DNA from: a virus | Length of the DNA stretch: 23,964 nt | Direction: 5' to 3' (one strand) | Virus record (IMG/VR): IMGVR_UViG_3300024258_000116 | Coordinates: 1-23,964 of that record | Part shown: positions 65-23,964 of the stretch, piece by piece | Layout: each line of letters begins with the position of its first letter | Position numbering within the stretch: position 1 is the first letter of the stretch | The notes under the pieces: model-generated | Told to the model about the DNA's origin: nothing | The model's input: only the letters and a program-made list of their open reading frames with translations | The model's database searches: none | Position numbers and translations under genes: made by a program

Positions 65-360
65 ATGCACACAAACGCCATCGATAATGTCATTGAAAAA
101 TCTCGTAAAGTTTTACGTGTTAAACATATGGCGTTGAAAACCGAAAAAACATACACGGGCTGGATCGCCAGGTATTGTCGGTGGCGATTTAATTCATAAA
201 GAATTTCTTCGCTTACCTTTAATTGTTTTGATGCCTTACCCAGGATACTGGAAACAGCAAATGGTAGCAGTATCCACATTACCGAAAAAATTATTCCAAA
301 AATAGCCACCAATATAATTACCCATTCTGGCCAGCCTGCTGTGTACTGATTCACCCACAT
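34..360 (-). CDS. Small membrane protein, C-terminus probably chimeric
   Basis: This frame encodes 108 residues. There is one strong membrane segment at about residues 13-35, followed by LLPFAV and a charged helical stretch ending ELNRHR at about residue 61. This plan (short periplasmic start, one membrane helix, LLPFAV, then a helix spaced with Leu) is common in small uncharacterised phage and bacterial membrane proteins. From about residue 62 onward the translation is only the antisense of the recombinase fragment at 65-199. The native protein was therefore probably about 60-70 residues with another ending. It is the last phage gene before the junction, and no function can be assigned. Real gene for the N-terminal half, doubtful for the rest. 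Confidence 0.5.
   Translation of the reverse strand: MWVNQYTAGWPEWVIILVAIFGIIFSVMWILLPFAVSSILGKASKQLKVSEEILYELNRHRQYLAIQPVYVFSVFNAICLTRKTLRDFSMTLSMAFVCIVELIPVNLC
65..199 (+). pseudogene. Truncated tyrosine recombinase (integron/phage integrase N-terminal domain)
   Basis: The plus frame opened by ATG 65 reads about 40 residues that look like the N-terminal core-binding (SAM-like) domain of integron- or phage-type tyrosine recombinases. The diagnostic stretch is KVLRVKHMALKTEKTYTGWI, followed by ARY; relatives carry patterns such as R.KHYS.RTE.TY..WI.R. The frame then ends at TAA 197-199, so the catalytic domain with the R-H-R-Y residues is absent. The fragment runs against all phage genes. 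The similarity fades at about 175-184, where the minus-strand membrane gene begins to look genuine. I infer that a recombinase gene was cut here by the phage or by a rearrangement. The family call is from motif recall only. Confidence 0.6.
175..190. other. Probable phage/host (or rearrangement) junction
   Basis: To the left, the plus strand encodes recombinase-like sequence up to about residue 37-40. To the right, the minus strand encodes a plausible membrane protein up to its residue 57-61. The two recognisable sequences meet within about 15 bases. The exact base cannot be set without the other prophage end. Confidence 0.45.
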
Positions 361-872: not shown

Positions 873-2549
873 TTATGGGCACGGATTAGCATTTACATAA
901 ATACTTCCAGTTACTATCGCTGTTATCTCTATAGTGGTCGGATTTACTAAAAACACAGCATTAGTAAACATAAAACTTGTGTCAGTAAAACTAACAGTAT
1001 TTATTCCGCTAATACAATTTAAATGCCTGCAATTAAAAAACAAACCGCTAAAGTTAGTCACTAATGGCGTTGTAAGAACTCCAACTGATAGCAGTGATCT
1101 ACAACCATTAAATGCCTCTTTAATTGATATGGCTTGAGGTGCGTCTATATCCCCAACAGATAGCAAGCTAACGCAACCCATCCATGCTTGATACAAGGTA
1201 AGTGCATCATTGGCAATAGGTAAGCTTATTGATCCAAACGATGTAATACTTGTACAACCATACCATGCTCTAGATAACTTTAATGCAGATGAATAGTCTA
1301 GAGTTGGAAATGATAACAGAGAAGTGCATCCCTCACACAAGCTACTAAAATCAGTTACTGAGCTAGTGTCAGCAATCGCTAGCGTTGTCATTGTTGTGTT
1401 ATTTCTAAAAGCACTACTTAGGTTTGTTATAGTACTGCTCTGCTGTATATCTACAGATAGATAACCAATATAAAAAGCTACGCGAGTATTAGAAGCCCCT
1501 CTAATTGTCACGTTCCCCGTAGGCACAGAACTGGCAAGAGATCCACCAGCATATAAAACAAAGGCACCACCACCCCAGTCAACCTCAAAAGCTTCAGGCG
1601 ACCAAAAACGGCAGGTATCAATTAGATTTACAGGCACAGCAACAGCGAGAAAATCACCACCAGCACAGGGCTGCGGATTATCAACAAAACCAACGACAGT
1701 AGGCTGCCCTGCAATATATTCAACAACAACATTATCCCCAACAGTAAAAGCGGCAGCGTCGCAGGTTGAATACACGACCGGGATATTGTTATAAAACGAG
1801 TCTGGGAAACGGGTTATGACTGCACCTTCCCACCAGCTAGTCGGATGGTTGTTGTTTTGTTCGTAGGGATTGGCACTAATGGTGTTTAAATCGGTGTCGA
1901 TAGCGGTTACTGTGGCCGGAATGTATCGTGGTAAATTTTCTTGCGCTGTTGGCATCAGGGCTGCATTAACAAACAGTTCTGATGCTCTCATGACCATGGC
2001 GTGTCTTTGCAGGCCATCACGGGCGGCGCTGTATGGCGCTGTGTCACCCGGTCTGATTAGTATTTTTTGTGGGCTGGTTTTGGGTGTTGCAAATCGGTGC
2101 AGTTCGATACTGCCGACCAGTTGGCCAACGGTTAATGTGTCAGCGCCATCAATGCAAACCGCGTTTTGTACGATTGCCTGATCATCGATTATTTTTTGTA
2201 GCTGCGGAATGGTCTTGTTGTTACCAGCTATGCGCAGATTGTTGCTGGCTTTTTCGTTATTGGCCAGGCCGATACTGCGCGACAGCGTGAAGCTGTAAGC
2301 AGTTTGTTTATTGGCATTGATAATGTCTGGCGGATCCAGCAGTGAATAGGTTTCGATTTGCAGTAATACAGATTCCAGTTCAGATTCAAGATCTGGCAAC
2401 CAGCCGTCTATTTCTGCATTCCTCGCTGCCAGATTGGTGTTTTCGGTTTCCAGTGTTGTGATTCTGGATGCAATACCGGTAACGTCCAGGTGTTCTTTTA
2501 CGGTGTAATTTCCCTCTACACCTACACCCACTATTTCAAATTTAGCCAT
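873..2549 (-). CDS. Tail-tip/fibre protein with C-terminal BspA-like leucine-rich repeats
   Basis: This encodes 558 residues from ATG 2549; the open frame extends 14 codons further to a TTG. The parts in order are: a short N-terminal attachment region; a likely coiled coil at about residues 25-70 (ITTLETENTNLAARNAEID and on); a mixed region; a compact domain at about 230-295 (WWEGAVITRFP ... VGDNVVVEYIAGQPTVVGFVD) of a type seen in phage tail proteins; and, from about 374 to 534, tandem leucine-rich repeats with a recurring F..C.SL pattern (CEGCTSL, WYGCTSI, WMGCVSL, FNGCRSL, FFNCRHL). These match the BspA/DUF285 style used in bacterial surface adhesins. It is the last structural gene after the tape measure, where host-recognition proteins sit, so receptor binding is a reasonable inference. 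The repeat-coding part looks AT-richer than the rest. Confidence 0.75.
   Translation of the reverse strand: MAKFEIVGVGVEGNYTVKEHLDVTGIASRITTLETENTNLAARNAEIDGWLPDLESELESVLLQIETYSLLDPPDIINANKQTAYSFTLSRSIGLANNEKASNNLRIAGNNKTIPQLQKIIDDQAIVQNAVCIDGADTLTVGQLVGSIELHRFATPKTSPQKILIRPGDTAPYSAARDGLQRHAMVMRASELFVNAALMPTAQENLPRYIPATVTAIDTDLNTISANPYEQNNNHPTSWWEGAVITRFPDSFYNNIPVVYSTCDAAAFTVGDNVVVEYIAGQPTVVGFVDNPQPCAGGDFLAVAVPVNLIDTCRFWSPEAFEVDWGGGAFVLYAGGSLASSVPTGNVTIRGASNTRVAFYIGYLSVDIQQSSTITNLSSAFRNNTTMTTLAIADTSSVTDFSSLCEGCTSLLSFPTLDYSSALKLSRAWYGCTSITSFGSISLPIANDALTLYQAWMGCVSLLSVGDIDAPQAISIKEAFNGCRSLLSVGVLTTPLVTNFSGLFFNCRHLNCISGINTVSFTDTSFMFTNAVFLVNPTTIEITAIVTGSIYVNANPCP
948..1430 (-). repeat. Tandem BspA-like leucine-rich repeats (coding)
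   Basis: About six to seven units of 22-26 residues each carry a Cys-x-Ser/His-Leu/Ile core. Five of these Cys are easily seen. The units are diverged in DNA, so this is an old protein-level repeat, not a recent expansion. Confidence 0.65.
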
Positions 2550-2556
2550 AGGATCA

Positions 2557-2577
2557 GTGGAAAGTGGAAAGTGGAAA
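2557..2577. repeat. Three tandem copies of GTGGAAA
   Basis: Three perfect 7-base copies lie just upstream (on the minus strand) of the tail-tip ATG at 2549. They fall in the 56-base gap after the preceding gene and inside the 14-codon extension that begins at the TTG. Confidence 0.85.
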
Positions 2578-2605
2578 GTTTTTACTTGCAACTCGTAACT
2601 GATTT

Positions 2606-3427: not shown

Positions 3428-6094
3428 TTAGGCTCCTATTAAATAAGCGGCCTGTTCTGCCGTGGCGCGTATCTGGATTTTTTCTAATATTTTAAACATG
3501 AACGCTTCAATTTCAGGCTCTAACCCTGCGGCTGATATATTGATGGCGGCCCCTCCGCTTTTGAGATAGTCATTTTTAAGTTTTATACTATCCAACTCGG
3601 CCTGCACCAGTTCGTTTTGCAGTTTCATTTGCTCTTTTTTCAGCTCGGCTTCATCGCGAATAATGCGCATAACCTGGTCTCGCTCAAACCATTCCAGATT
3701 TGAACCTGACGCCAGACTACCAACCAAATCAGACATAAGTGATTGAGAACCAACAATTGAATCCGTTACTGATTCTATAGCGAGCCTATACGACTCAAGC
3801 TCGTTTTTAGCTTGCTGTATATCCAGCTCGATACTTGCTTTATAGATCTCTGTTGAAAATCCAGCCAGTGCAATTTCCAGTTTCAATGCCTGGTCAGCCG
3901 TGTACTTGATGGCCTTTGCGACTTCCTCTTGATCATCTGTCGCAGTGTTATTAATAGCGACTAATTCACCGGTGCTTTTAGTGACTTCATCAATAGCCTC
4001 TGCTGTTTGCTTTACACCATTTATATAGGTGCCAGAGGCGTACTCCAGATCTTTATTGGATTGCGCCAGCTCAGCGGCTTCTTCATCGACTTTTTTAAAA
4101 CTTTCTCCTAAATCTTTATTTCCCTGCTCTACATCATTTATTCTGTTGTAATATATATCCCACATACCCTGGATATTACTGACCGCCAGATCAGACTCTT
4201 TAACCGTAACCCCTATTGCGGCAAAGCTGTCGATGAGTTTTTTTGATTCAGTTTTAAATTCTTCACTTTGCTCACCCAGGCCGAACAGGCTTTCGGTAAA
4301 ATCAACAACGCTTTCTATTCCATCTTGTATTTCTTCGCCAAAATTGTCATGGATTAGCGATCCTATCTCCCAGCCCACTGCACCGGATGACAATATCCCC
4401 ATGCCTTTGGCGAATTTACCAGCACTAACAGTAGCACTATCAAATTGAGGAATAATCCCGGTCAACCCTTTCGCCGAGTCAACCAAACCCTTAGTTGCCA
4501 GCAAACTAAGACCACCACCCAGCGTAGTAATAGCCGTACTCATGCCATCTAAAACTGGTAACAGAGTATTAACAACCTTCCCTAGCCCCAGAGTCTCACC
4601 TGTTGTTAGTTTTGCTTTTTCACTCAACCCATTAAACGCATCAATCGCATTGAATATCTCTTTAACAAACGGAACCAGGTTGCTGGCCATGCCTTCGGTA
4701 ACAGTACCCAGCGATGAAACACTATCAACTACTTTCTGAATAGCTTCTGACAGACCCTCTGGAGTAGCGACATCAACACCATCAAACAGCCCACTCAACT
4801 GATCGCCCACGCCAGACCATGCAGCCAACGCGCCAGAAAAATTAACCAGGCTTAATGCCTCAGGCAAAGACTCTGCAATTGCCAGCGCAAACTGTTCAAA
4901 ATCAAAACCCAATTCGTTAAGCGCGGCATAAACTTCTTCAAAGGCATCGGTACTGTTAAAACTAAAACTGATGGCTGAAAATACCTGTGAGATTGCTTCT
5001 ACATCCTGGGTGAATTGGGGCAAGATATTCGCACCAAACCCAACAAATGCCAGGCGTAGATTGTTTTGCATGTTCTGGCTGACCAGGTCGAGGTTTTCAG
5101 ACATTTTCGTGAATGCCTCATCCAACAGATTAGCTTCACTCTGCATAATAGCGAGTGATTCAATAAATTTGGCGTTTCCATTACCGGTCAGGGTTAAAAT
5201 TGCATTCAGCCCTTCTACCGAGCCAAATAGTTTTGTCATTGAATCAACAGAACCACCTGTTTTATTTTTGATATCCTCGATAAATCCACCAAATCCTTTA
5301 CTGGATATGGCAGCGCTATCAAATTGCAGACCCAGGCGTTCAGCTTCATCCCTGGCATCTTTTGTCGGCTTTAAAATGTTACCGAGAGCCGCTTTTATTC
5401 CACTGATGGACTCACTGGTACGTATTCCAGACCCTGTCAATGATGCGACCGCTGCTCCAAGCTCTTCAAATGATACGCCTGAGTTCGCGGCGATACCCGT
5501 GACTTTAGACAATGAACTGGATAGTTCAGGGATGGTGGTCTGGCCCTGTTTGACGATCTTGAAAAACGTGTCTGAATAGCCTCCAGCATCACTCATTTCT
5601 GCGCCGTAACTGTTGAGCGTAGAGACCAGCGCAATCAGCGTATCACTGAGCCCTGCTTTTCCGGCAACGGCAAGTTTTTCGGCCTGTGCAACTACCGTTA
5701 GTGAATCTTTATAATCAACACCGGCTGATATTGATGCATAAATCGCGGCATTGATGTCTTCTATTGATTGGGTTGATCCGCCTGCATAATCCTGTATCTG
5801 GGTACTGAACTGGTCGAGATTTTCACCGGTGGTGGTGAATAGCGTGCTGATTTCATTAAATGATGTTTTAAAATCTGCCGCTTCTTTGACAGCAATACCC
5901 GCCATGGCCACTCCCATAGCCACAATAGCAGCATCCACAGCCAGCACAGAATTAGCAATAGAATCTAACGGGCCAGCGATATTGCCAACCGAGGTTCCCA
6001 GTGCATCGATGTTTTTGCCGACACCTTTAACGACGTTGCCGGTGTTATCGACGGCTCCAAATACAATGTCTATGGTTTTTTTAAGGTCAGCCAT
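3428..6094 (-). CDS. Tail tape measure protein (TP901-1 type)
   Basis: This encodes 888 residues. The product sets tail length and is threaded through the tail tube during assembly. Residues about 60-340 carry the recognisable TP901-type core: the hydrophobic run VAMGVAMAGIAV, then EAADFKTSFNEISTLF, and later SGVDYKDSL, STLNSYG and GIAANSGVSFEELG. Further hydrophobic patches lie near 565-620. The C-terminal third is a charged, helix-forming stretch (ELESYRLAIESV, ELKKEQMKLQNELVQAELD), ending in a small conserved-looking tail (IRATAEQAAYLIGA). The gene follows the chaperone/frameshift region directly, as in lambda (G/T then H). Length predicts a tail of similar length to that of lambda, whose gpH has about 850 residues. 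Confidence 0.93.
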   Translation of the reverse strand: MADLKKTIDIVFGAVDNTGNVVKGVGKNIDALGTSVGNIAGPLDSIANSVLAVDAAIVAMGVAMAGIAVKEAADFKTSFNEISTLFTTTGENLDQFSTQIQDYAGGSTQSIEDINAAIYASISAGVDYKDSLTVVAQAEKLAVAGKAGLSDTLIALVSTLNSYGAEMSDAGGYSDTFFKIVKQGQTTIPELSSSLSKVTGIAANSGVSFEELGAAVASLTGSGIRTSESISGIKAALGNILKPTKDARDEAERLGLQFDSAAISSKGFGGFIEDIKNKTGGSVDSMTKLFGSVEGLNAILTLTGNGNAKFIESLAIMQSEANLLDEAFTKMSENLDLVSQNMQNNLRLAFVGFGANILPQFTQDVEAISQVFSAISFSFNSTDAFEEVYAALNELGFDFEQFALAIAESLPEALSLVNFSGALAAWSGVGDQLSGLFDGVDVATPEGLSEAIQKVVDSVSSLGTVTEGMASNLVPFVKEIFNAIDAFNGLSEKAKLTTGETLGLGKVVNTLLPVLDGMSTAITTLGGGLSLLATKGLVDSAKGLTGIIPQFDSATVSAGKFAKGMGILSSGAVGWEIGSLIHDNFGEEIQDGIESVVDFTESLFGLGEQSEEFKTESKKLIDSFAAIGVTVKESDLAVSNIQGMWDIYYNRINDVEQGNKDLGESFKKVDEEAAELAQSNKDLEYASGTYINGVKQTAEAIDEVTKSTGELVAINNTATDDQEEVAKAIKYTADQALKLEIALAGFSTEIYKASIELDIQQAKNELESYRLAIESVTDSIVGSQSLMSDLVGSLASGSNLEWFERDQVMRIIRDEAELKKEQMKLQNELVQAELDSIKLKNDYLKSGGAAINISAAGLEPEIEAFMFKILEKIQIRATAEQAAYLIGA

Positions 6095-14197: not shown

Positions 14198-14207
14198 CCA
14201 GAATGTT

Positions 14208-14236
14208 TGTCCGGTTTTTAGGGAGAAAACCGGACA
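14208..14236. repeat. Interrupted palindrome, copy 1 (cassette left border)
   Basis: Arms TGTCCGGTTTT (14208-14218) and AAAACCGGACA (14226-14236) pair perfectly over 11 bases around the 7-base spacer TAGGGAG. With flanking bases the unit is a 32-base sequence shared, with one change, with copy 2 at 21112-21140, in the same orientation. There is no T-run on either side, so an intrinsic terminator is unlikely. A protein-binding dyad or recombination border fits better. Confidence 0.9.
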
Positions 14237-14240
14237 GGTG

Positions 14241-14246: not shown

Positions 14247-14258
14247 CGTTAATTTTTG

Positions 14259-14699
14259 ATGACCAAAACCATGAAATGTGAGCCTACCTGGATAGATATA
14301 ACCTCCGCTATATCACTCCCAATAATTGCTGCTATTGGATTATTAATCGCATATGTTCAATGGAAAACCAATCAAAATCGACTAAAGAATGAGTTATTTG
14401 ATAGAAGATATGAAGTATTTATAAATATAAAAACATTTCTTTCAGACCTCTCTAGAGAAGGAAATTTAAGTAGTGAAACTCAAGATAACTTCCGCAGATC
14501 AATTATTGGAATCAGATTTATTTTCGATAAAAAAACTTATAATTACGTCTGGAATGACCTTTGGTGCAAAGCCGTAGAAATGGATTTAGCTCATACACAA
14601 AAAAAACACACCAAAAGAGCGGAGCTAATGAAAGAACTAATGACTGAATTTTCAAACATAGAAGATAAATTTGAACCTTATATGCAGCTAAAATATTAA
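14259..14699 (+). CDS. Opposite-strand membrane protein (moron)
   Basis: This encodes 146 residues from ATG 14259; ATG 14271 is an equal alternative and a TTG lies at 14256. One membrane helix sits at about residues 15-35 (SLPIIAAIGLLIAYV). It is followed by QWKTNQNRLKNELFDRRYEVF and a long soluble helical domain (IKTFLSDLSREG, RRSIIGIRFIF, KAVEMDLAHTQKKHTKRAEL). The W.TN.NRLK.ELFDRRY.V signature recurs in uncharacterised bacterial membrane proteins. The gene is clearly AT-richer than its neighbours, opposes the late operon, has its own extended -10, and its stop overlaps the convergent gene by 4 bases. These are the marks of a gene expressed in the lysogen. An exclusion or defence role is possible but not shown by sequence. 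Confidence 0.8.
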   Translation: MTKTMKCEPTWIDITSAISLPIIAAIGLLIAYVQWKTNQNRLKNELFDRRYEVFINIKTFLSDLSREGNLSSETQDNFRRSIIGIRFIFDKKTYNYVWNDLWCKAVEMDLAHTQKKHTKRAELMKELMTEFSNIEDKFEPYMQLKY

Positions 14700-21101: not shown

Positions 21102-21111
21102 ACTGATTTAT

Positions 21112-21140
21112 TGTCCGGTTTTTAGGCAGAAAACCGGACA
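21112..21140. repeat. Interrupted palindrome, copy 2 (cassette right border)
   Basis: Arms TGTCCGGTTTT (21112-21122) and AAAACCGGACA (21130-21140) surround spacer TAGGCAG. It differs from copy 1 by a single spacer base over the shared 32 bases and has the same orientation. It begins 14 bases after the stop of the Mor/C-like gene. No T-run follows on either strand. Confidence 0.9.
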
Positions 21141-21153
21141 GGATCACTATTTA

Positions 21154-21450
21154 CTAAACTCCATATTGCTGACAGATAGTAAATACCTGGCTTTTAGACA
21201 TACCTTCTTTATTTGCAATTTCTCGGCATGTCTTTCCTGCCAGTTTTAATTTGCAAATTCTTTCATTGCGAATATCTTTTCTTTCAACAGGAACATAAAC
21301 TCGTTCTGACCCACATCGACGCTTAACCCCGTCATCAACAACCAGGGCAAAATCGTGCAACCGGTTACGACTGAGATCTATTCCGAGTTTTTTGGCGGCC
21401 TGGAACATTTCTTCATAGATGATGTCGCCTAAATTTTCAGAGCCAGCCAT
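21154..21450 (-). CDS. Mor/C-family transcription activator
   Basis: This encodes 98 residues. The N-terminal half is a dimerisation-type region (ENLGDIIYEEMFQAAKKLGI). Next comes a basic strand (VKRRCGSERVYVPVERKDI) that fits the Mor pattern of a Gly-x-x-x-Val-Tyr-x-Pro strand. The C-terminal helix-turn-helix is RNERICKLKLAGKTCREIAN plus KEGMSKSQVFTICQQ. In phage Mu, Mor and C are dimeric activators of middle and late promoters binding dyads. Here the gene overlaps the large-terminase end by 14 bases and is followed 14 bases later by a perfect dyad, an attractive candidate target. The position inside the late operon differs from Mu, where both genes precede it. Confidence 0.8.
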   Translation of the reverse strand: MAGSENLGDIIYEEMFQAAKKLGIDLSRNRLHDFALVVDDGVKRRCGSERVYVPVERKDIRNERICKLKLAGKTCREIANKEGMSKSQVFTICQQYGV

Positions 21451-23515
21451 CGTTACCCCCTACTGAGTCATACATATCTACATTTCCATACGGATCATTA
21501 TCCGCTGTTTGATTGTTATTGGTTTCTTGAGAAACGGCTGGAGCGCTGAACAGATCCACTTGTTGCAATTGATGCTCGATATCATCCCATTGCGCTGGTG
21601 TTTTTAAGTGCAGCTTTTTAGCCCGTGCCGCATGAAGGGCATAGCGTTCTGTGTCTGGAGCTTCGAGTCGTCTGCCAGAGTATTTCTGCCAAACTAGTTT
21701 TTTTCTGTTAGTAGGTGATGGTGCTTTTACTTCACTGTTTAGCTGCTTAAAATAGTCATTCCTAACTGTCTTATAAGCGTGCATCCGCCCTGCCCCATTA
21801 CCCTCCAGCTGTAGCCTTTTATACAGCAGATCCTTTGATTTAAGGGTTCCAATTATATAAACCTTCAACCCATATTTTGATGCTTTTGTCGGCGATTTAT
21901 GATCTATTGATCTTTCGCTGGGCGTTGAAAATATTTCTTTATCAGTTTGATCAGTTGATCCTTTTCCTGCCATGATAAGCACATGAGAATATTTTTTCTT
22001 CATGGCCCTTACCCAGGTATAAACCATGTCGTTTGTACCACCGTCTGATGAGTCGATGGTTAGCGCCTGAGCAAATATGTCAAACCCTTTAACATGCTTG
22101 AATGGCTGGAAGCACAGCTGCTCTAATTCCGTCCATACAGGGTCTTTTATGTCATGGACTACGCCGTATATTTCACCCCAATACACCAGCCAGCTTTCTT
22201 CATTTTTGCCCCATGCCCTGATACAGACAGCAAAGCGATCATCTTGCACATCGATACCTATGGTAATATTTAATCCACCAATCTGCACTTGCATTTCTGG
22301 GTAATCTAACGCCCTTTGCTCAAGCGTTTCAGCTTCTGCATTATTGCTTTCGTATTTATAGGCCAGTGCCAGGCAATTGTTAACAAATGATATCCAGAAG
22401 GTATCTATTCCCTGAGCCAGCTTGTGCTTTGCTTCCAGGTATCTTTCCACCAGTCGTTCCATTCTTGAGCTATTGCCATTTAGATAAATTTCACCTACAC
22501 CGGCATGACCCCTGATGCCTCTGAATTCAGCCGTTGCTTTCCACCCATAATTTTCTGTAAAAACAGCAGACTGAACATTCTTCCATTTTTGTTCGTCATC
22601 CCATATTGACCCACAATGAGGACATACATAGACCGCTGTTTCTGGTTTGCTTCTTCCGTATATTTCATGCACCGTTTCATTGTCTTTATCCCACACTACA
22701 TTATAAAAATCGAGGGGGTGAGACTCTCCACAATCATGGCACGGAATATAAAATTTACTTTTATCAGATTCTTCGTAAGCGGTTTGAATGGCAGATAAAC
22801 CATCTATTGTGGCCGTGCCTCCATAGATAACTTTTCTGTCTTCAACCTGTTTTGTTCGCTCTTCAAAGTTTTTAATCGCATCACCCTGCCCTTTAACATT
22901 GGCGTTTGCATCATCTGGCTCTTCAATGATTGCGACTGTTAACGTCGAGTTTTTACCAGATGCTGGTGAGTTTGATGTGACTAACTTTAAAAACCCACCA
23001 GGAAAGTTACGAAAATTCTTTTTATTACCTGCTTTTCGACTAACACTAACATCAATCTTTCCTTTTAATTTCGGTGTAGCCTTGACTGCTGGTGCCAATT
23101 TTTCCTCAATAAAACCGTCAAATTCCCCCGCCTTAGAAAACATAATTCCTATAGAACATGGGTCAACATCAATCCTTTTCATGACATACCCAATAACTGG
23201 GCCACTAGTCCACGCCTGCTGGCTACATTTCATATTGATTACTTTCCAGACCTCTGGATCGTCGATTGATGCACAAATACCAATTGCCCATGGAATATTC
23301 ATCATATCGAATTTTCCAGCATGATCTGGCGATTCCAGCTTTGTCAGCATTCTATATTTTTCGTTCCATTCTCTGGTGCTAATATCTTCAGGAGGCGACC
23401 ATTTTTTCAAAGCCTTCCTCATCCTCGTCCTCATCGTCTGACGAGTATTCAGCCAGGCGGGCGAGGACGGGGTTTGTAAGACCCTGAAGCTCCTTGAGTT
23501 CACAATCGAGTTCAT
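21437..23515 (-). CDS. Terminase large subunit (GpA family)
   Basis: This encodes 692 residues from ATG 23515 (AGAG 6 bases upstream); ATG 23422 preceded by GAGG is a shorter alternative, since the first 30 residues lie inside the small-subunit gene and look unconserved. The ATPase opens TREWNEKYRML, and the P-loop region is MKCSQQAWTSG at 95-105. The Walker B-like strand is LTVAIIEEPDDA near 192-203. A zinc-finger pair Cys259/Cys262 and Cys298/Cys301 follows. The nuclease begins ITIGIDVQDDRFAV near 417-430 with Asp422. The closing motif that usually reads EALD is YALH here. The product cuts concatemers and pumps DNA into the head. Confidence 0.93.
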   Translation of the reverse strand: MNSIVNSRSFRVLQTPSSPAWLNTRQTMRTRMRKALKKWSPPEDISTREWNEKYRMLTKLESPDHAGKFDMMNIPWAIGICASIDDPEVWKVINMKCSQQAWTSGPVIGYVMKRIDVDPCSIGIMFSKAGEFDGFIEEKLAPAVKATPKLKGKIDVSVSRKAGNKKNFRNFPGGFLKLVTSNSPASGKNSTLTVAIIEEPDDANANVKGQGDAIKNFEERTKQVEDRKVIYGGTATIDGLSAIQTAYEESDKSKFYIPCHDCGESHPLDFYNVVWDKDNETVHEIYGRSKPETAVYVCPHCGSIWDDEQKWKNVQSAVFTENYGWKATAEFRGIRGHAGVGEIYLNGNSSRMERLVERYLEAKHKLAQGIDTFWISFVNNCLALAYKYESNNAEAETLEQRALDYPEMQVQIGGLNITIGIDVQDDRFAVCIRAWGKNEESWLVYWGEIYGVVHDIKDPVWTELEQLCFQPFKHVKGFDIFAQALTIDSSDGGTNDMVYTWVRAMKKKYSHVLIMAGKGSTDQTDKEIFSTPSERSIDHKSPTKASKYGLKVYIIGTLKSKDLLYKRLQLEGNGAGRMHAYKTVRNDYFKQLNSEVKAPSPTNRKKLVWQKYSGRRLEAPDTERYALHAARAKKLHLKTPAQWDDIEHQLQQVDLFSAPAVSQETNNNQTADNDPYGNVDMYDSVGGNDGWL

Positions 23516-23885
23516 AGTTTCTCTTTAAATGTTTTTTTAATTTTCTGGCCAATCGCATCAGTTCAGATCGAGCTGAAAGAATGACACTTTCAAGAGCCCA
23601 CTCGGCATCATCAGCCATCACATACATCCCTGATTTTTCCGCCAGCTCTAACTCTTTTAAATCTCCATTTAATCTATCCAGCCTATCCTTTGCCGACTCT
23701 CTCTGATAACCGGAAGACACAAACTGAACTCGCCACTCAATCACATCCTGAGTGTCATATTCATTTGACTTACCTCGACCAGCATCAACCTTAATTGGCA
23801 TTCCTTTGTCCTGCCAATCGGTCAAAGTTCGCTCACTAACCCCGATGATTTCAGACAATTCCTTTTTGTTAACCACTCGACCCAT
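23388..23885 (-). CDS. Terminase small subunit (Nu1-like)
   Basis: This encodes 165 residues from ATG 23885; the open frame continues upstream to 23945, but the Nu1 similarity starts at VNKKEL, and no better ribosome site is seen further up. The winged helix-turn-helix (VNKKELSEIIGVSERTLTDW then QDKGMPIKVDAGRGKSNEYD, VIEWRV) recognises the packaging site. The middle is a charged helix (RLNGDLKELELAEKSGMYV), as in lambda Nu1. The C-terminus is very acidic (YSSDDEDEDEEGFEKMVAS). It overlaps the large subunit and pairs with it. Confidence 0.88.
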   Translation of the reverse strand: MGRVVNKKELSEIIGVSERTLTDWQDKGMPIKVDAGRGKSNEYDTQDVIEWRVQFVSSGYQRESAKDRLDRLNGDLKELELAEKSGMYVMADDAEWALESVILSARSELMRLARKLKKHLKRNYELDCELKELQGLTNPVLARLAEYSSDDEDEDEEGFEKMVAS

Positions 23886-23964
23886 CAGTAAACAACTAAC
23901 CAATGAAAGAGTAAGGAAGTCCATAGGCAAACTAAATCTGCACAAAACCCACGAGTCTTATGCC
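23886..23964. other. Region upstream of the terminase, cos candidate area
   Basis: In lambda-type phages the packaging site lies just before the small terminase gene. These 79 bases show no convincing Nu1-binding repeats or promoter by eye, so only the position suggests cos. The window ends here. Confidence 0.2.

Follow-up and report, generated by a model that had tools for sequence, protein, structure and literature searches.

A candidate phage attachment site within an integron-integrase-like recombinase gene at the tail-gene end of a lambda-type phage

Introduction

In the usual attachment site of a tyrosine integrase, two inverted integrase sites flank a crossover region of about 7 bp. 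An identical core of ~7 bp is the recombination site of these enzymes, and phages that target coding genes mostly bring a replacement for the severed part (PMC10111431). Insertions of one mobile element into a gene of another, disrupting it, are described for helper-embedded PICIs (PMC10111431).

Two syntenic relatives of the phage studied here bear on where its attachment site would lie. The closest one, IMGVR_UViG_3300032272_000022 (47.9 kb; G004 below), carries a 54-bp repeat (4289-4342; 47800-47853) whose second copy falls inside a tRNA-Pro gene, and has a tyrosine integrase gene at its right end, opposite the tail. Judged from its sequence, this phage has demonstrably integrated site-specifically in tRNA-Pro, and TGGTAGAAGGTTT repeats inside both of its ends look like putative arm sites. 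In the other relative, Marinobacter phage PS3 (MF959999), the integrase gene lies just beyond the tail end, across the presumed attP, so an attachment border is expected at the tail end. The attachment site adjoins the tail end in both phages, in PS3 as deduced from gene order, and this is the edge seen in the DNA analyzed here.

That DNA, referred to as the window, is an entire IMG/VR record of 23,964 bases. At its left edge, the 5' part of an integron-integrase-like gene meets phage sequence. Like a helper-embedded PICI (PMC10111431), the integration that we propose would have a tyrosine integrase target a gene of another mobile element and supply no replacement. Those PICIs are satellites in prophage late genes, whereas here a full-size phage would be the inserted element and an integron-type recombinase gene the target.

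Results and discussion

A recombinase gene fragment at the left edge of the window

The initial annotation had described a plus-strand N-terminal piece of a tyrosine recombinase at the left edge that stops where phage sequence begins, and both points are borne out. Residues 10–40 of the encoded product align with positions 2–32 of PF13495 (Phage_int_SAM_4), the N-terminal domain of integron-type tyrosine recombinases, at E 9.5e-6 in a protein scan. A six-frame search of the record matched the same family at 92-187 with E 8.2e-7. The scores, 26.4 bits in the protein scan and 24.2 bits in the six-frame search, are 0.6 and 2.8 bits short of the Pfam cut-off of 27, as expected because the fragment holds about one third of the domain. 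In tblastn searches, integron-integrase-like recombinases 40–57% identical over 28–40 residues were found on Alteromonas, Acinetobacter and Proteus plasmids, and the top single records or MAGs matched at E 3e-6 to 6e-7. The fragment begins at the N-terminus of the relatives' proteins in plasmids and MAGs (an aligned example is MGQSPFIEKIRAILRTKHYSIQTEKTYLLWIKRF from Alteromonas against MHTNAIDNVIEKSRKVLRVKHMALKTEKTYTGWIARY of the fragment), and an RBS-like motif, AGGAA, stands 10 nt 5' of its ATG. It is homologous to the N-terminus of integron integrases and their relatives with Phage_int_SAM_4. Only about 38 codons are visible here. The region that would encode the catalytic domain (R..H-R..Y), and the extra alpha-helix patch of integron integrases, falls outside the window, and no attC or attI array was seen.

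Likeness to recombinases is lost at codon ~38–40, corresponding to bases ~178-187, and the frame beyond RYCRW is unlike the family. By ~182-187 the resemblance is gone; neither codons 41–44 nor the stop TAA (197-199) belong to a recombinase. The boundaries first given for the piece were accurate to ~15 bases at the 3' end.

The fragment is not conserved in related phages. It matched nothing up to E 1 among 50,697 phage records and no PHROG family, and five related phage records contain no comparable PF13495 match. Since it is absent from phage records and from the syntenic phages, bases 1 to ~176 are most likely host DNA; that absence makes a host origin probable for a flank of only ~176 bases. 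No phage or plasmid DNA resembling the surroundings of the junction was found, and no close relative of the fragment in genome contigs. A degenerate pattern run against genomes recovered nothing closer than distant recombinases, and the matches to a degenerate RYCRW pattern were all chance ones in phage structural genes.

A second PF13495 match, weak at E 0.003, lies at 14427-14504 within the plus-strand ORF 14256-14699. We took it as chance and not as a recombinase; it sits in an unrelated membrane-protein ORF. This ORF has the look of a small membrane protein, runs antiparallel to the head operon and may be an extra gene expressed in lysogeny.

Table 1. Features of the phage border and the phage in the window
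Feature	Position	Strand	Details
Recombinase-frame ORF, 44 codons	65-199	+	Translation MHTNAIDNVIEKSRKVLRVKHMALKTEKTYTGWIARYCRWRFNS, then stop; PF13495 match
5' part (codons ~1–39) of integron-integrase-like tyrosine recombinase gene, probably host	65-181	+	PF13495, tblastn relatives, absence from phage records
Recombinase frame reading on into phage-side sequence, TAA at end	182-199	+	Family similarity stops about there
Inverted repeat ATCGCCA-GGTATTGTCGG-TGGCGAT, candidate integrase core site (C / C')	164-188		Perfect 7-bp arms, 11-bp spacer
Small membrane-protein ORF at phage edge	178-360	-	ORF as called is 34-360 and overruns the recombinase fragment
Small ORF near phage edge	485-826	-	phrog_25501, E 8e-8
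Final large tail-module gene	873-2591	-	Homologous to the final tail gene in Marinobacter phage PS3
Mor-like regulator gene	21154-21450	-	Homology to G004 Mor-domain protein
Terminase large subunit GpA, lambda type	21437-23515	-	PF05876 and PF20454
Terminase small subunit Nu1	23388-23945	-	PF07471, E 5.6e-12

A lambda-type phage bounded at its tail-gene end

On the minus strand the window carries, from right to left, the Nu1/GpA terminase pair, a Mor-like gene, small genes that include membrane-protein ORFs, and the head, tape measure and tail genes. The product of the final large tail-module gene is 27% identical over 317 aa (E 8e-20) to that of the last tail gene of PS3. Its C-terminal third contains a DUF285-like repeat at E 2.6e-5, slightly below cut-off. 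To the left of this gene, two small ORFs run up to the phage edge. The protein of the inner one has an internal repeat, KxWPKDYxMxxYxIxKQxxAYK, present twice, and a start that resembles a signal peptide; neither phage records nor viral contigs contain a close relative. The outer one matches phrog_1009 very weakly (E 0.043, residues 8–61 only), and searches with both small edge proteins gave no result.

Three other contigs, 99.94–99.97% identical to the window, extend the phage rightwards. The longest (L004) overlaps the window by 6.5 kb at 99.95% identity and reaches 9.55 kb beyond its right end. The genes of L004 encode an S24/CI-like repressor, a Cro/YdaS-like regulator, an O-like initiator, a DnaC-like loader, an exonuclease, an M23 peptidase and SSB, and thus include a CI/Cro switch and O-type replication genes. 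The last protein at its far end matches L004 itself only. Because the Nu1/GpA terminase is accompanied by CI-, Cro-, O- and DnaC-like genes and SSB, the phage is, by its gene content, a lambda-type temperate phage. Rightwards, the three extension contigs end before an integrase gene or a host border is reached, and PF00589 (tyrosine integrase) has no match in the sequenced part of the phage, which stops short of the far end.

The two relatives serve as analogues for the unsequenced end. G004 resembles the window in its terminase (52%) and portal (59%), in the order of the peptidase, capsid, O-like, SSB and Mor-like genes, and in having its tail end at the attachment border. Its final tail genes are unrelated to those in the window, and its attB is a tRNA gene with the 54-bp shared repeat, whereas attB of the window would be a protein-coding recombinase gene. 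PS3 shares the terminase (46%), the head genes, the tape measure and the last tail gene in the same order; unlike the window, it has no PF13495 match and no Mor match.

An inverted repeat at the junction and a proposed integration site

We searched the whole window for inverted repeats with perfect 7-bp arms and spacers of 4–13 bp. There are 21 distinct centres in 24 kb, and 1.5% of positions lie at most 8 bases from one. One repeat is centred on base 176, where the recombinase similarity ends (Table 1). The chance of a repeat so near the junction is ~1.5%; as the search followed the discovery of the junction, we treat the repeat as supporting, not decisive, evidence for an attachment core. 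Direct repeats in the surrounding sequence (an 11-bp pair, 23-33 and 227-237; GAATTAATTCA at 51-61) were rejected, being by estimate at chance level for their length.

The initial annotation had left two models standing, an attachment site in a resident recombinase gene and Mu-like insertion. The former is now favoured because of the lambda-type packaging and early genes, the relatives with tyrosine integrases, one of them in tRNA-Pro, and the core-like inverted repeat on the junction. We estimate a probability of roughly 60% that the phage integrated site-specifically within a resident integron-integrase-like recombinase gene and that a lambda-type prophage, seen at its tail-gene end, makes up the rest of the window. 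Window bases 1 to ~176 would then be host and the remainder prophage. A tyrosine integrase, presumably encoded just past the sequenced part of the phage, would act on an attP beside the tail genes and recombine it with an attB in the 5' part of the resident gene. Crossover would take place between the two arms of the inverted repeat, at about 171-181. Integration would cut the gene after codon ~38; its N-terminal piece would remain and read through briefly to the stop at 199, and the other part of the gene should lie at the far prophage end. The frame simply runs into a stop, without a replacement part, which counts against the proposal given the usual habit of phages that target coding genes. 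The recombinase gene would thus be disrupted; it would be off in the lysogen, and excision would restore it.

Alternative origins of the border

The recombinase gene may not have been whole beforehand, the phage having integrated beside an already truncated or decaying relic or the remnant of an integron or genomic island. Integron-type recombinases are often broken, for instance on the plasmids pTE101a of Alteromonas and pR4WN of Acinetobacter, where the copies are interrupted, and the visible part comprises 38 codons only. However, these codons are intact, with a start and the RBS-like motif, and the break falls both on the inverted repeat and on the expected prophage edge. A pre-existing relic is therefore unlikely.

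The border is shown by this one record, and exact patterns from either side of the junction occur in no viral contig, as would be the case if an assembly or binning artefact had fused two unrelated sequences. We consider such a fusion improbable, since the border lies where the syntenic relatives have their attachment side and coincides with the inverted repeat. Elsewhere the record agrees with independent contigs at 99.95% identity, although these stop short of base 1.

Alternatively, the fragment could belong to the phage, as an old integrase remnant or a piece of cargo on the attP side. The PS3 integrase gene flanks the tail genes on just this side, with matching orientation, but PS3 and G004 lack PF13495 and the fragment goes unmatched in phage records even at E 1, so that phage ownership is improbable. 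An SSV-style split of the phage's own integrase was rejected because the N-terminal piece points into rather than out of the phage and does not resemble the relatives' integrases.

The Mor-like gene, previously read as compatible with Mu-like insertion, is real by homology. PF08765 has no direct match in the window; the gene product is 37.6% identical (E 1.5e-20) to a G004 protein encoded at the same place behind the terminase, and that protein matches the Mor domain PF08765 at E 2.6e-8. Because G004 sits in tRNA-Pro and encodes a tyrosine integrase, a Mor-like gene in this phage group is no sign of Mu-like transposition. Nor was a DDE transposase, MuA or MuB noticed among the ORFs and family matches of the window and the 9.5-kb early region, which together cover all but the last few kb. 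A Mu-like transposable phage, inserted at random between copies of a 5-bp target duplication, would account for a Mor-like gene and for a host gene cut anywhere, but we rejected it as very improbable in view of a Nu1/GpA terminase in place of Mu-type packaging, the CI-, Cro-, O- and DnaC-like early genes, the lack of a Mu transposase in the 9.5-kb extension, and the tRNA-Pro integration, by a tyrosine integrase, of a relative whose Mor-domain gene is genuine.

Consequences of site-specific integration in a recombinase gene

Prophage borders within coding genes are ordinary, whereas an integron-type recombinase gene is an unusual target, and the open-licence literature searched yielded no account of a phage that uses an integrase gene as attB. 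After a one-off insertion, the locus would be nothing more than an ordinary prophage border. If, instead, the phage regularly attaches in this gene, it disables the integron-type recombinase of its host, and one mobile element clearly controls another. A single junction is insufficient to establish a regular site. It is a tentative and rather doubtful idea that the normal attB of this temperate phage is a site within the conserved 5' stretch of the coding region (Y-x-x-W-I-x-R-Y) in integron-type recombinase genes, with lysogeny turning the recombinase off and induction turning it back on. Were it true, lysogeny would also halt any cassette shuffling by the recombinase, and one mobile element would gate the recombinase of another.

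Repeated palindromes upstream of the phage operons

Two near-identical palindromes, TGTCCGGTTTT-7-AAAACCGGACA, are present at 14207-14238 and 21111-21142, where none is expected by chance, and each lies upstream of a minus-strand operon. G004 has a repeated dyad at the same two places (L034 3998-4059 and 8218-8279), with the same centre, TTTTTAGGG-A-GAAA, and different arms. In both phages, -10-like boxes follow at similar distance. From this arrangement, the palindrome pairs look like co-evolving activator sites, a prediction under which they would perhaps serve the Mor-like regulator, whose gene adjoins the second copy. In G004, a unit of ~22 nt, ACCCACATTTTTTGTGGGTGGT, occurs in four tandem copies (L034 12686-12789), possibly an operator array.
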